Shown here: in pieces, positions 60,294 through 64,000 of the stretch | How positions within the stretch are numbered: the first letter of the stretch is position 1 | Layout: every line of letters starts with the position of its first letter | Assembly (NCBI RefSeq): GCF_000156175.1 | Contig: NZ_GG692710.1 | Coordinates: forward strand, 1,047,623-1,111,622 | From: Collinsella intestinalis DSM 13280 | Lineage (GTDB): Bacteria; Actinomycetota; Coriobacteriia; Coriobacteriales; Coriobacteriaceae | Reading direction: 5' to 3' | Length of the DNA stretch: 64,000 bases | Translations under genes and position numbers: made by a program | Notes under the pieces: generated by a model | Databases searched by the model: none | Told to the model about the DNA's origin: nothing | What the model saw: the letters and a program-made list of their open reading frames with translations, nothing else

Positions 60294-60492
60294 CGGGATA
60301 CCTCCCCCGTGTAGAAAACAAGTCCAGTGTATCAAGCTATACAAATACCAAATCTGGCCACAAAAGCCATGTCAGTAATTCAATTTATCGCAATGTCCAA
60401 TCGACGCTTTTATACTACTATTTTCACAGTTATATTAACCTTCTCGCAGTAGCGCGCCTTCGCCCAATCGTTCCCGAAGATTGGATAATCGT

Positions 60493-62139
60493 GTGATTCG
60501 ATACGTCATTGCCAAGTTGTTCAAATCCAACGAAGCCGTCGCTTTTATCGTTGCCTCAGCAGCAGGATTTCTTCTCTCTTACCTTTCCCCATACGCAAAC
60601 GGTAAGTTTCTCGATTTTTTGCTAGCCAATAATGACATCAACAATACTGTCGCTTTCGCCCTTTTGACAGCATCCATTGGAATCTTCTCGTCCCTTTTTT
60701 TGTATTATTCAGGCACGTTATCTGTGAGGGTTATGTCACAAGTCTCTTATTCAATTCTAAGAGATGTCATCCTTGGCTACGAAAGAACCGCCCTTCCCCA
60801 GTTAAATCAGAATGACCCCGCATACACGACACAGCACACGATCTCCGACTCAAACGCAATCGCGAGCTTCCTGCTATCAAACATTGTCAACATCCCCCTC
60901 TCACTCATTGCCGCACCATTAATCGTCTTCATCATGTGGTCAATCAACCCTATTTTTTCCGTCCTTTCTGTTGCTCTGCTTATTCTTTACTGCATAACAG
61001 CCGCCCTACTGCGAGATCTCCTATACAAGGTTTCCCTTGAAAGAAAGAAAGCGGACAGCACATTCTACTCCGCCATCTCTTCACAGCTTAATCAGGTGCT
61101 CGAGACAAAACTTGCTTCAGGCTACACGAGAAGCGAGCGAGGCCTTGACGCCGAATACGCCCTATATCTTCCAAAGATCCTTCGCGCAGGAAAAATATCC
61201 TACTCCCTAGCGTCGATTGATGGTATTTTTTCTGCGTTGTTTCAATCTGTAATATTGATTATATCTGGCATACAAATAATCAATGGAAACATGAGCATTG
61301 GCGAATATACAATAGCCAGCGCCTATTTTTCCACAATGCTAAAAACCGCAAAAAATCTAATGACTCTCTTTCACTCCTATCAAGGAGCCAGGGGATCATG
61401 GGACAGGGTTCGCCAGCCTTTACAGACCAATGAGCTATTCTCCTCAAAAGAAACCCGGGGGGCAACGCTCGACGCAATCGACTCCATCGATATATGCAAC
61501 TTATCCATAACGCCTCTCGACATAGGCGATAGGCAGGGTGACGGGCGCCCTTGTCCCAAGCTGTCATTCTCAAGGCCAGGCACATATTGCATTACCGGGA
61601 AAAACGGGTCTGGTAAAACTACCCTTTTATTGTATTTGCTAGGTCTCTATGAATCCAGTCATAAAGTCAAGTATAACGGACGCTATATCGAGGAATATGA
61701 TCTCGACTCCATCTTAGGGAAACTCGTATCAACCTGTCCGCAAAATCTATATGCACCAGATTGCTCCGTTGATAGTTTGCTGAGTACGCTTGGGACCCCG
61801 TTCCGTGAGCTATGCAACAGCACATCAATAATGCCCTTGCTTACAGCTCGAACAGAGGGCCTTTTACATAAAGCATGTAATGCCTTATCAGGCGGTGAAC
61901 TCAGAAGCATATACATCTGGTCGACAATCGCTCGGCAGACGCCAGTTCTCGTACTAGATGAACCAACTGTCGGTCTTGACGCTCCCGCTTGCGACGAATT
62001 GATTTCTCTTATCAAGCATAACTCGGAACAACGAATGATAATTGTCGTTTCGCATGATGATGCCGTCATCAAGGCCTCTAAAACAGTCATCGACTTCGCA
62101 GACTTCACCAACGCAAAGACGCCTTCGACCACCAGCTAG
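60493..62139 (+). CDS. ABC exporter (fused membrane and ATPase domains) of the RiPP region
   Basis: A 548-residue half-transporter with six helices (about 10-285) and an ATPase: Walker A ITGKNGSGKTTLLLYLLG, signature ALSGGELRSIYIWSTIA, Walker B PVLVLDEPTVGLD and H-loop VVSHDD. No C39 peptidase domain precedes the membrane part, so it does not itself cleave leader peptides. The signature and Q-loop regions are divergent from the multidrug exporters at 44-48 kb. Codon use is clearly A/T-richer than neighbouring genes. The start may be the GTG at 60493 or the TTG at 60481; both have weak ribosome-binding sites. It probably exports the peptide made from the convergent precursor genes. Confidence 0.87.
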   Translation: MIRYVIAKLFKSNEAVAFIVASAAGFLLSYLSPYANGKFLDFLLANNDINNTVAFALLTASIGIFSSLFLYYSGTLSVRVMSQVSYSILRDVILGYERTALPQLNQNDPAYTTQHTISDSNAIASFLLSNIVNIPLSLIAAPLIVFIMWSINPIFSVLSVALLILYCITAALLRDLLYKVSLERKKADSTFYSAISSQLNQVLETKLASGYTRSERGLDAEYALYLPKILRAGKISYSLASIDGIFSALFQSVILIISGIQIINGNMSIGEYTIASAYFSTMLKTAKNLMTLFHSYQGARGSWDRVRQPLQTNELFSSKETRGATLDAIDSIDICNLSITPLDIGDRQGDGRPCPKLSFSRPGTYCITGKNGSGKTTLLLYLLGLYESSHKVKYNGRYIEEYDLDSILGKLVSTCPQNLYAPDCSVDSLLSTLGTPFRELCNSTSIMPLLTARTEGLLHKACNALSGGELRSIYIWSTIARQTPVLVLDEPTVGLDAPACDELISLIKHNSEQRMIIVVSHDDAVIKASKTVIDFADFTNAKTPSTTS

Positions 62140-62146
62140 GGAATCC

Positions 62147-62197
62147 GGCTATATGGAACAATGACTCTACTTCCGTCCTTTATGCTTCCATATAGCC
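62147..62197. repeat. 12-bp perfect inverted repeat between exporter and small membrane peptide
   Basis: GGCTATATGGAA (62147-62158) pairs with 62186-62197 across 27 nt. It covers the stop codon of the 39-residue minus-strand peptide and begins 7 bp after the exporter stop, so it may end both convergent transcripts, though no T-tract follows. Confidence 0.6.
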
Positions 62198-62286
62198 TTT
62201 ACCAACAATACAAACAATACGATTGGCACAGCGCAGACAATAAAGACGAACAACAGACCCAGAACGCATTGAGCAAGGACAAGCAT
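62167..62286 (-). CDS. 39-residue hydrophobic membrane peptide
   Basis: A short frame starting MLVLAQCVLGLLFVFIVCAV and ending in a basic tail (IWKHKGRK), with one membrane helix of about 25 residues. GGGGAGAG lies 6 nt before the ATG. It starts 16 bp after the terminator that ends the precursor transcripts and would be reached by read-through. Candidate role: immunity peptide or small export partner for the RiPP. Its size leaves real doubt. Confidence 0.5.
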   Translation of the reverse strand: MLVLAQCVLGLLFVFIVCAVPIVLFVLLVKAIWKHKGRK

Positions 62287-62301
62287 CTTTCACTCTCCCC
62301 G

Positions 62302-62327
62302 AAAAAGGGCAGTGCAGAGCACTGCCC
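62302..62327 (-). terminator. Strong intrinsic terminator after the precursor peptide genes
   Basis: On the minus strand GGGCAGTGC pairs perfectly with GCACTGCCC around TCT, followed by TTTTT. It lies 38 bp after the second precursor gene. Confidence 0.9.
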
Positions 62328-62365
62328 AAAATCTCACCCCGCCGCTTCATCAGCAGCACGGGCGA

Positions 62366-62554
62366 TCAATCCTCATCGGTCGGATCGCACCAATCCATTG
62401 GCAGGACACAACCTGACACCTTGTCTACGTAACACCAGTCGACCGCTGGGCACTCAGCCAAATCTCGAAGAGTGCAAATATCAACCCCGAAACAATACGG
62501 CCCAGCCTCTTCAGATTCTTTTCCATTCAGATTCAGAGGTAACATGTGCTTCAT
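62366..62554 (-). CDS. Six-cysteine RiPP precursor peptide 1 (SCIFF/ranthipeptide-like)
   Basis: A 62-residue peptide beginning MKHMLPLNLNGKESEEAG. Six cysteines lie at 21, 27, 35, 41, 49 and 56, all within 36 residues. Four of them begin Cys-X3-Asp units (CFGVD, CTLRD, CPAVD, CDPTD); the other two are followed by Asp after 2 and 4 residues. Three are preceded by Asp-X (VDIC, VDWC, MDWC). The ribosome-binding site AAGGAG is 5 nt upstream. It shares its MKHM start and Cys/Asp layout with the neighbouring gene. Thioether bridges to Asp, as in ranthipeptides, are the natural hypothesis. Confidence 0.8.
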   Translation of the reverse strand: MKHMLPLNLNGKESEEAGPYCFGVDICTLRDLAECPAVDWCYVDKVSGCVLPMDWCDPTDED

Positions 62555-62576
62555 GGCAACTCCTTACAGCTAATAC

Positions 62577-62780
62577 CTATGTTTGATCAATGCCGCAATG
62601 ATCAATAACACAAATGCTCCCATGATCCTTATCGTAATCGCAGTAGTCAGTTAGCGCGCATCCATCTGCATGATCTTGGAATTTGCAAAAATCGGTTACT
62701 CCCAGCGCACAGTCAAAACTCAGCGGCTGAACAACGGAACCGCCTCCAAGCTCCTGACTAATTAATCGCATGTGCTTCAT
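62577..62780 (-). CDS. Six-cysteine RiPP precursor peptide 2 (SCIFF/ranthipeptide-like)
   Basis: A 67-residue peptide beginning MKHMRLISQELGGGSVVQ. Six cysteines lie at 24, 32, 41, 47, 57 and 62. Each is followed by Asp within one to six residues (for example CKFQD, CALTD, CVID, CGID), and three are preceded by Asp-X (TDFC, TDYC, IDHC). A very good AAGGAGG site lies 8 nt upstream. It is 22 bp upstream of precursor 1, so both are probably on one transcript behind the radical SAM gene. Sequence outside Cys/Asp positions differs strongly, suggesting two distinct products. Confidence 0.8.
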   Translation of the reverse strand: MKHMRLISQELGGGSVVQPLSFDCALGVTDFCKFQDHADGCALTDYCDYDKDHGSICVIDHCGIDQT

Positions 62781-62798
62781 GGCAAACCTCCTTATGCC

Positions 62799-62906
62799 CT
62801 AAAGATGAACCATAGACTTATTATGCCGGGCTAAAGCACATGTCTGGGTAACAGTTTCGCCAAATGCTGCATTTTCTAGGATAAACGGAGCCAATATAAT
62901 CCCCAT
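62799..62906 (-). CDS. Possible 35-residue open frame between maturase and precursors
   Basis: The 167-bp gap between the radical SAM gene and precursor 2 has an open frame starting MGIILAPFILENAAFGET with one cysteine. AAGGG sits directly against the ATG, too close for a normal ribosome-binding site. It might be a third small peptide, or the gap may simply be a leader with a promoter for the precursors. I consider it more likely noncoding. Confidence 0.2.
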   Translation of the reverse strand: MGIILAPFILENAAFGETVTQTCALARHNKSMVHL

Positions 62907-62947
62907 CCCTTGCCAATTTCGCGGGGCATTAAAACACGGTGCTAAGT

Positions 62948-64000
62948 CTATCCAAAATCCTCCGAACGCGAGATTAAATCAAGCGCGATTTCTAGGCACA
63001 TTCTTTTATACTCGCAGGACGTCGGATGCCGACTTTCATCCAGATATCCAGTTTCATCCGCCGCCTCCCAACTACAACCGCCACCGCAGAAAGACCTTGC
63101 CCAACAACTCGAACAATCCGTTCTCTTGTCAACGGTCTGCGCCCAATTTACGGAATAAGATTGTTCATCAACACCATCGAGGATGTTGCCCATCTTGAAC
63201 CAATCCATCCCAACAAATCTATGACATGGATATACATCTCCTTCAGGCGTAATAGATATAAAACGCCGACCAGCTCCACACCCAACGACCGAAAGTCGTC
63301 TCTCAAAAATTAAATCGACCACTTTTTTAAGAGTGCCAAAAAGTGGTTTATCGCCTTGCTTGATCTGTTCAAGATAATCATTAGATAGCTCAATCAGGTC
63401 ATGCCTGATTTTCTCTAACGCATTTTCATCGAGCATGATGCGCTCGTCGAATGTGCTAACCGGGGAGAAATAAATCTTTTTGAAACCCATATCCTTAAAA
63501 CTGGCGTAGTCATCTAGAAGGCTACAGTTATTTTTTGTCAAGGTCGCACGGGCGCCGAGTGAAGCTCTTTTCGAATAGAGCCTCACATTCCTTTCTATAT
63601 CTGCAAACGAGCCCCTTCCGTTCTTATATGGCCGCGATTCATCATGTTTACATCCGACTCCATCAAGACTCACCAATATAGAAAAGCCATGCTCCTTAAA
63701 GGCCTCAATTGCTCGATCGTTAAGCAGGGTCCCATTTGTGGTGATGGAGTATGTGAACCTCCGTTTTGGGTGAGCGCTTTCTGCATAGTCAACCGTCTTC
63801 CATATCAAGGGCTCATTTAGCATTGGCTCTCCGCCGAAGAACACTATCGTAAGAACATCATTTTTAGATGAATTATGCACGAGATAGTCAACCGCCGCAT
63901 AAGCGACTTTCTCCTTCATAAGCAGCGATTGCGTGCCATAATTACCTTTTCCGGCAAAACAGTAATCACATCCCAAATTACAGACATGGGCCACGTGCAG
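62948..64000 (-). CDS. Radical SAM/SPASM peptide maturase (SCIFF/ranthipeptide type), 5' partial
   Basis: 351 codons are visible and the frame continues off the right end. It opens LHVAHVCNLGCDYCFAGKGN, with the CX3CX2C cluster of radical SAM enzymes and strong likeness to SCIFF maturases. FFGGEPMLNE and TTNGTLL follow. The C-terminal SPASM region binds further clusters: CGAGRRFISITPEGDVYPCH, CSSCWARSFCGGGCSW and CEYKRMC. Such enzymes form thioether bonds from Cys to backbone or side-chain carbons of their precursor. About 90-100 N-terminal residues, including the usual RRE leader-binding domain, should lie beyond the window. Confidence 0.9.
   Translation of the reverse strand: MHVAHVCNLGCDYCFAGKGNYGTQSLLMKEKVAYAAVDYLVHNSSKNDVLTIVFFGGEPMLNEPLIWKTVDYAESAHPKRRFTYSITTNGTLLNDRAIEAFKEHGFSILVSLDGVGCKHDESRPYKNGRGSFADIERNVRLYSKRASLGARATLTKNNCSLLDDYASFKDMGFKKIYFSPVSTFDERIMLDENALEKIRHDLIELSNDYLEQIKQGDKPLFGTLKKVVDLIFERRLSVVGCGAGRRFISITPEGDVYPCHRFVGMDWFKMGNILDGVDEQSYSVNWAQTVDKRTDCSSCWARSFCGGGCSWEAADETGYLDESRHPTSCEYKRMCLEIALDLISRSEDFG

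Follow-up and report, generated by a model that had tools for sequence, protein, structure and literature searches.

Few ranthipeptides have been characterized, those named being CteA/Tte1186a, freyrasin and NxxcA (PMC8326336). The freyrasin maturase PapB forms bonds between Cys and the Asp beta-carbon within CX3D motifs, and synthetic peptides were used to show that it accepts Cys-Xn-Asp pairs with n=0-6, both in-line and nested (PMC9413430); an earlier study, as described in PMC8172795, found the enzyme strict for CX3D. In QhpC, three thioethers from Cys to Asp/Glu are installed by QhpD, a reaction that needs the leader (PMC7876137). For clostridia, a link between SCIFF products and quorum sensing has been reported (Chen et al. 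2020, cited in PMC8326336).

Here we describe a locus at the right end of a 64-kb window (the whole stretch of 64,000 nucleotides that was analyzed) from a Collinsella genome of 1.81 Mb. A first-pass annotation of this window had proposed a complete RiPP locus, and all the elements that it named are present (Table 1): two adjacent six-Cys open reading frames with MKHM starts and strong ribosome-binding sites, a small membrane peptide and a convergent ABC exporter, in DNA richer in A/T (44-51% GC vs 58-69% for the neighboring genes on the right-hand side). The strong terminator is also found, directly 3' of pepB, with the total number of terminator-like sites across the region equal to the shuffled background. 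The locus is complete in the genome rather than in the window, whose end cuts the maturase gene leaving the C-terminal 350 of 441 residues inside; the remainder was taken from the host genome.

Table 1. Features of the Collinsella cassette, in window coordinates.
Feature	Position	Strand	Basis
Inserted cassette	60325..64000 in window, on to ~64508, ~4.2 kb total	.	Alignment to G028
Radical SAM/SPASM peptide maturase	62948..64000 in window, start at window-equivalent 64273	-	Motif, NCBIfam/PDB matches, tree
Precursor pepA, 67 aa, three Cys/Asp modules	62577..62780	-	Shine-Dalgarno AAGGAGG
pepA core: CALGVTDFCKFQD / CALTDYCDYD / CVIDHCGID	62586..62711	-	Module parse and shuffles
Precursor pepB, 62 aa, three Cys/Asp modules	62366..62554	-	Shine-Dalgarno AAGGAG
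pepB core: CFGVDICTLRD / CPAVDWCYVD / CVLPMDWCDPTD	62375..62494	-	Module parse and shuffles
Intrinsic terminator-like hairpin 3' of pepB, 9-bp stem, 7 GC, then T5	62307..62327	-	
39-aa single-span membrane peptide, basic C-terminus	62167..62286	-	C. aerofaciens-group syntenic counterparts
ABC exporter, convergent	GTG 60493 or TTG 60481, to 62139	+	Pfam PF00664 and PF00005

The two precursors matched no Pfam or NCBIfam family above threshold. When they were compared with three others of a kind a clear grammar emerged: five distinct precursors from three lineages, namely the window pair, the C. aerofaciens pair and a single peptide upstream of the maturase in the coriobacterium G163, all parse (5/5) as exactly three modules of the form C-x(2-5)-D-x-C-x(2-3)-D. 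Among 20,000 shuffled versions of each peptide, its composition being kept, not one reached three modules; for the window pair this count is descriptive, since the pattern was defined after viewing those peptides, and the independent case is that of G163. A comparison of the two Collinsella lineages shows the core Cys and Asp residues to be identical at 28 of 28 positions vs 33 of 57 for the other residues (Fisher p=1.5e-5), and this invariance has persisted through 33 synonymous changes in the codons of conserved residues. Each precursor offers six Cys-xn-Asp pairs with n=2-5, resembling the acceptor motif of PapB and freyrasin (about CX3D) with a non-uniform spacing, and Thr is rare in the cores. 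The six Asp paired with the six Cys were overlooked in the first-pass annotation and are most likely the feature that defines the chemistry of this system.

The leaders comprise about 19-23 residues and begin with MKH or MQH. The MKHM start and the six Cys had been taken as SCIFF-like, a reading that fails on two counts: QhpC, the substrate of QhpD, also begins with MKH, and the precursors gave no match to the SCIFF model TIGR03973 (two of them searched up to E=10, P0001 and P0002, and a third, P0007, up to E=0.1), to which a true SCIFF precursor scored 85.5 bits against a cut-off of 50. As both gut SCIFFs and QhpC carry such starts, the MKH start marks a wider group of enzymes rather than SCIFF. 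The same annotation was right in noting that the typical SCIFF core (CGECQTSC-like) is absent and in expecting a product of another type.

The maturase carries a CX3CX2C radical SAM motif (CNLGCDYC) and a full SPASM domain, and an alignment showed this motif and the SPASM cysteines to be common to the SCIFF, PapB and QhpD controls. Its top-scoring NCBIfam model was that of the SCIFF maturases (TIGR03974, 277 bits, cut-off 425), followed by PapB (NF047865, 274.5 bits, cut-off 340) and QhpD (TIGR03906, 253 bits, cut-off 453), while a true SCIFF maturase, QhpD and a PapB-type enzyme from Anaerococcus reached 726, 781 and 359 bits, respectively. All three families modify ribosomally made peptides or proteins, PapB and QhpD at Cys-Asp pairs, which agrees with a peptide-acting enzyme; the scores stay below every cut-off. 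By HMM the enzyme does not qualify for the PapB family, and the PapB-model score carries no PapB signal, because the SCIFF and QhpD control enzymes score as high (270-273 bits); the three enzymes of the window's own clade, described below, gave 274.5 (window), 271.6 and 284.6 bits, all under 340. QhpD membership is likewise unsupported, by its score and by the lack of qhp genes in the ~4.2-kb cassette. A PADLOC match to the anti-phage viperins was weak, confined to the common radical SAM core, and was discarded. The closest solved structure by sequence was the radical SAM protein of PDB 5wgg, which we take to be the SCIFF maturase CteB, and the AlphaFold model of the C. aerofaciens homolog was too poor for use (pLDDT 45).

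In the phylogenetic tree the enzymes of the window, C. aerofaciens and G163 formed a clade of their own (100/99), separate from the SCIFF, PapB and QhpD groups, whose order is unsettled. The best tree placed this clade beside SCIFF, weakly (79/65); forcing it to join PapB cost 5.4 lnL units (p-AU 0.18, in a tree holding just two PapB rows), and forcing it to join QhpD gave a p-AU of 0.29, so that neither placement is rejected. Since the enzyme falls below every curated cut-off and its nearest known clade is unsettled, the acceptor chemistry cannot be read from the enzyme. The earlier designation as a SCIFF/ranthipeptide-type maturase therefore stands in its second half, a ranthipeptide-type radical SAM/SPASM enzyme, and falls in its first, given the TIGR03974 score and a position outside the SCIFF clade (100/100).

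Together, these results led us to propose that the locus is probably a Cys-Asp ranthipeptide cassette of a distinct subfamily, in which the maturase links each core Cys to a downstream Asp and the peptides are exported. Six Cys-Asp thioethers per peptide would be the most likely reaction, because the enzyme is related to PapB and QhpD and the Cys-xn-Asp pairs are invariant. Docked on the MKH-type leader, the maturase would employ radical SAM chemistry to attach the sulfur of every core Cys, six in all, to the beta-carbon of the Asp that comes next downstream, giving up to six thioether rings (-12.09 Da). Three twin-ring units would follow one another in tandem, each reading C-xn-D, one residue, C-xn-D, with a natural n of 2 to 5, and each Collinsella locus would yield two such peptides. 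The exporter has its membrane and ATPase domains fused and lacks a C39 peptidase domain, implying that the leader would be removed by another protease before the convergent ABC transporter exports the product.

Within this proposal, it is conceivable, though we would not expect it, that links to Asp form at some modules alone or in a nested manner, the first Cys joining the second Asp. PapB makes both in-line and nested links and part of freyrasin is nested, and the abundance of aspartates in the precursors leaves exact pairings (e.g. CDYD, CDPTD) ambiguous; however, PapB, when tested on nested pairs, chose CX3D rather than a shorter or longer pair, and the spacing in the window peptides favors the nearest Asp. 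The locus might otherwise be a divergent SCIFF locus making one or a few Cys-Thr (gamma-carbon) bridges, with the remaining Cys free. The top-scoring model, the weak placement of the clade in the best tree and an MKH start like that of some gut SCIFFs all point in this direction, but the precursors fail TIGR03973 and lack the CGECQTSC core, Thr is rare in their cores whereas Asp is invariant, and the enzyme lies outside the SCIFF clade, so that we consider such bridges improbable. Both curated models, like the tree, speak against SCIFF membership as such, which we reject. Metal binding is known among acidic Cys-rich peptides, and on this general knowledge alone the precursors could be metal-binding or redox peptides whose Asp ligate the metal, with few or no cross-links to Asp; the fact that they strictly accompany a radical SAM/SPASM maturase and an exporter, and the precedent of PapA and QhpC for Cys-Asp links, make this quite improbable. 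A sactipeptide-like product, with links from sulfur to the alpha-carbon of non-Asp residues, is very improbable, as the sactipeptide maturase models that match do so much more weakly than the ranthipeptide models (RumMC, 113 bits) and the invariance of Asp would be left unexplained.

Returning to the proposed Cys-Asp cassette, its accessory genes are also conserved. Seven C. aerofaciens-group loci have a counterpart of the membrane peptide in synteny (MPLLQG...RRK/RKK), whose true start is probably MPLLQG, because every copy retains an intact downstream ATG preceded by a GGAGG site. In one C. aerofaciens-group genome (G009, L013) the first ATG of the gene is followed by an in-frame TAG. From its placement we guess that the 39-aa product may be an immunity or accessory peptide, and in the scheme proposed above it might give immunity. 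The C. aerofaciens counterpart of the exporter, 48.5% identical, occupies the same place. In another genome of the group (G025) the exporter is broken into two overlapping frames (L017:6098-7749) with maturase and precursors intact, which suggests decay.

Searches of 45 Collinsella genomes located the maturase in 8 and the precursors in 9, and located no cassette gene in 22 other genomes of the family. Among about 398 Coriobacteriia one further genome, G163, carries a maturase (40% identity) and, adjoining it, a precursor of the same grammar; this genome is 82% complete, so contamination of the contig is possible. Over the 398 genomes the precursors occur in 10, with the maturase in all except G013, where the precursors lie near the contig start and no maturase was found. 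The association of MKHM peptides with such enzymes, put forward as a check in the first-pass annotation, is borne out, in that C. aerofaciens-group Collinsella and G163 likewise have precursor genes next to this maturase, a recurrence that speaks against chance, with the amendment that MQH starts occur besides MKH. No further precursors were found in a 396-genome sample of the phylum, nor a further maturase in the order of G163; three genomes of the wider Actinomycetota hold distant enzymes (217-290 bits), beside which no peptide with Cys/Asp modules was found.

The gene order (maturase, pepA, pepB, membrane peptide, convergent exporter) is kept in C. aerofaciens with different neighbors. In the host genome of the window the insert is bordered by murB and an FMN riboswitch/ribU-like gene, which are separated by 218-288 bp in nine related genomes without the cassette (G028, G029, G018, G023, G024, G040, G030, G044 and G026). 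Homology to the nearest of these (G028, 92-93%) stops at 60325 and resumes at ~64508, 86 bp having been replaced. The riboswitch itself (RF00050, 113 bits; L002:4522-4671, window-equivalent ~64521-64670) sits at the right edge of the cassette and precedes an ECF S-component, the ribU-like gene. A scan of each cassette end revealed no flanking repeats in common, and the cassette showed neither an integrase nor a transposase. The A/T-rich insert is a mobile RiPP cassette in gut Collinsella; it is real and conserved, and probably functional.

A phage origin was rejected, as viral contigs and phage records held no close relative; matches to human-faeces "phage" sequences were distant (~29-36% identity), and three of the four examined adjoin SCIFF peptides. 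Plasmid records gave nothing above 35% identity among the matches listed. It is worth recording that in Anaerococcus prevotii plasmid pAPRE01 encodes a maturase of the PapB family together with a nested CxxCDxxxD peptide, class III lanthipeptide genes lying nearby (L047:229-5308), and that related radical SAM enzymes on Nostoc, Bradyrhizobium and Mycetohabitans plasmids (L067, L068, L069) adjoin ferritin-like proteins, the latter two also genes annotated as tryptophan 7-halogenase; these enzymes possibly serve a tryptophylquinone-type maturation.

In the literature searched, largely papers free of subscription, we found no published report of the cassette; an earlier mention in a sequence-similarity survey is possible. 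Its natural substrates appear to use a variable Cys-xn-Asp spacing, and its maturase clade is a new one for peptide macrocyclization. As the cassette is present in 9/45 species genomes of Collinsella, which are common gut bacteria, a secreted modified peptide could affect competition or signaling in the community. We tentatively extend the proposal to a human-gut Actinomycetota subfamily in which one maturase might install six Cys-Asp beta-thioethers, in three tandem twin-ring units whose ring sizes are non-uniform and set genetically, in each partner peptide of a mobile two-peptide antimicrobial or signaling system, although here we would not claim even odds.

Judged by its genes alone, the locus has the gene pair expected of a ranthipeptide system, a radical SAM/SPASM maturase of the SCIFF/PapB/QhpD group adjoining a Cys-rich precursor. 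Like freyrasin (PapA/PapB) of Paenibacillus polymyxa, it combines six Cys and six acceptor Asp in Cys-xn-Asp motifs with such a maturase; unlike it, the cassette belongs to Actinomycetota and has three regular twin modules with a spacing of 2-5, two precursors, MKH leaders and a maturase outside the PapB clade and below its cut-off (272-285 vs 340). With SCIFF/thermocellin (TIGR03973/TIGR03974) it shares six Cys in ~45 residues, an MKH-type start and a related maturase, but it lacks the SCIFF core, its precursors fail the model, the conserved partner is Asp and not Thr, and the enzyme clade is separate. The QhpD/QhpC pair of quinohemoprotein amine dehydrogenase has an MKH leader and Cys-to-Asp/Glu thioethers; however, QhpC is an enzyme subunit encoded in a qhp operon, whereas the cassette encodes stand-alone peptides and an exporter, and the two maturases are 27% identical. 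Two-component thioether bacteriocins of the thuricin CD type, in which two modified peptides are encoded together with an exporter, are alike in architecture alone; they are sactipeptides with alpha-carbon links. On this comparison of sequences, the cassette is best read as a new ranthipeptide branch, distinct from SCIFF and ranthipeptide-like in its expected mechanism.
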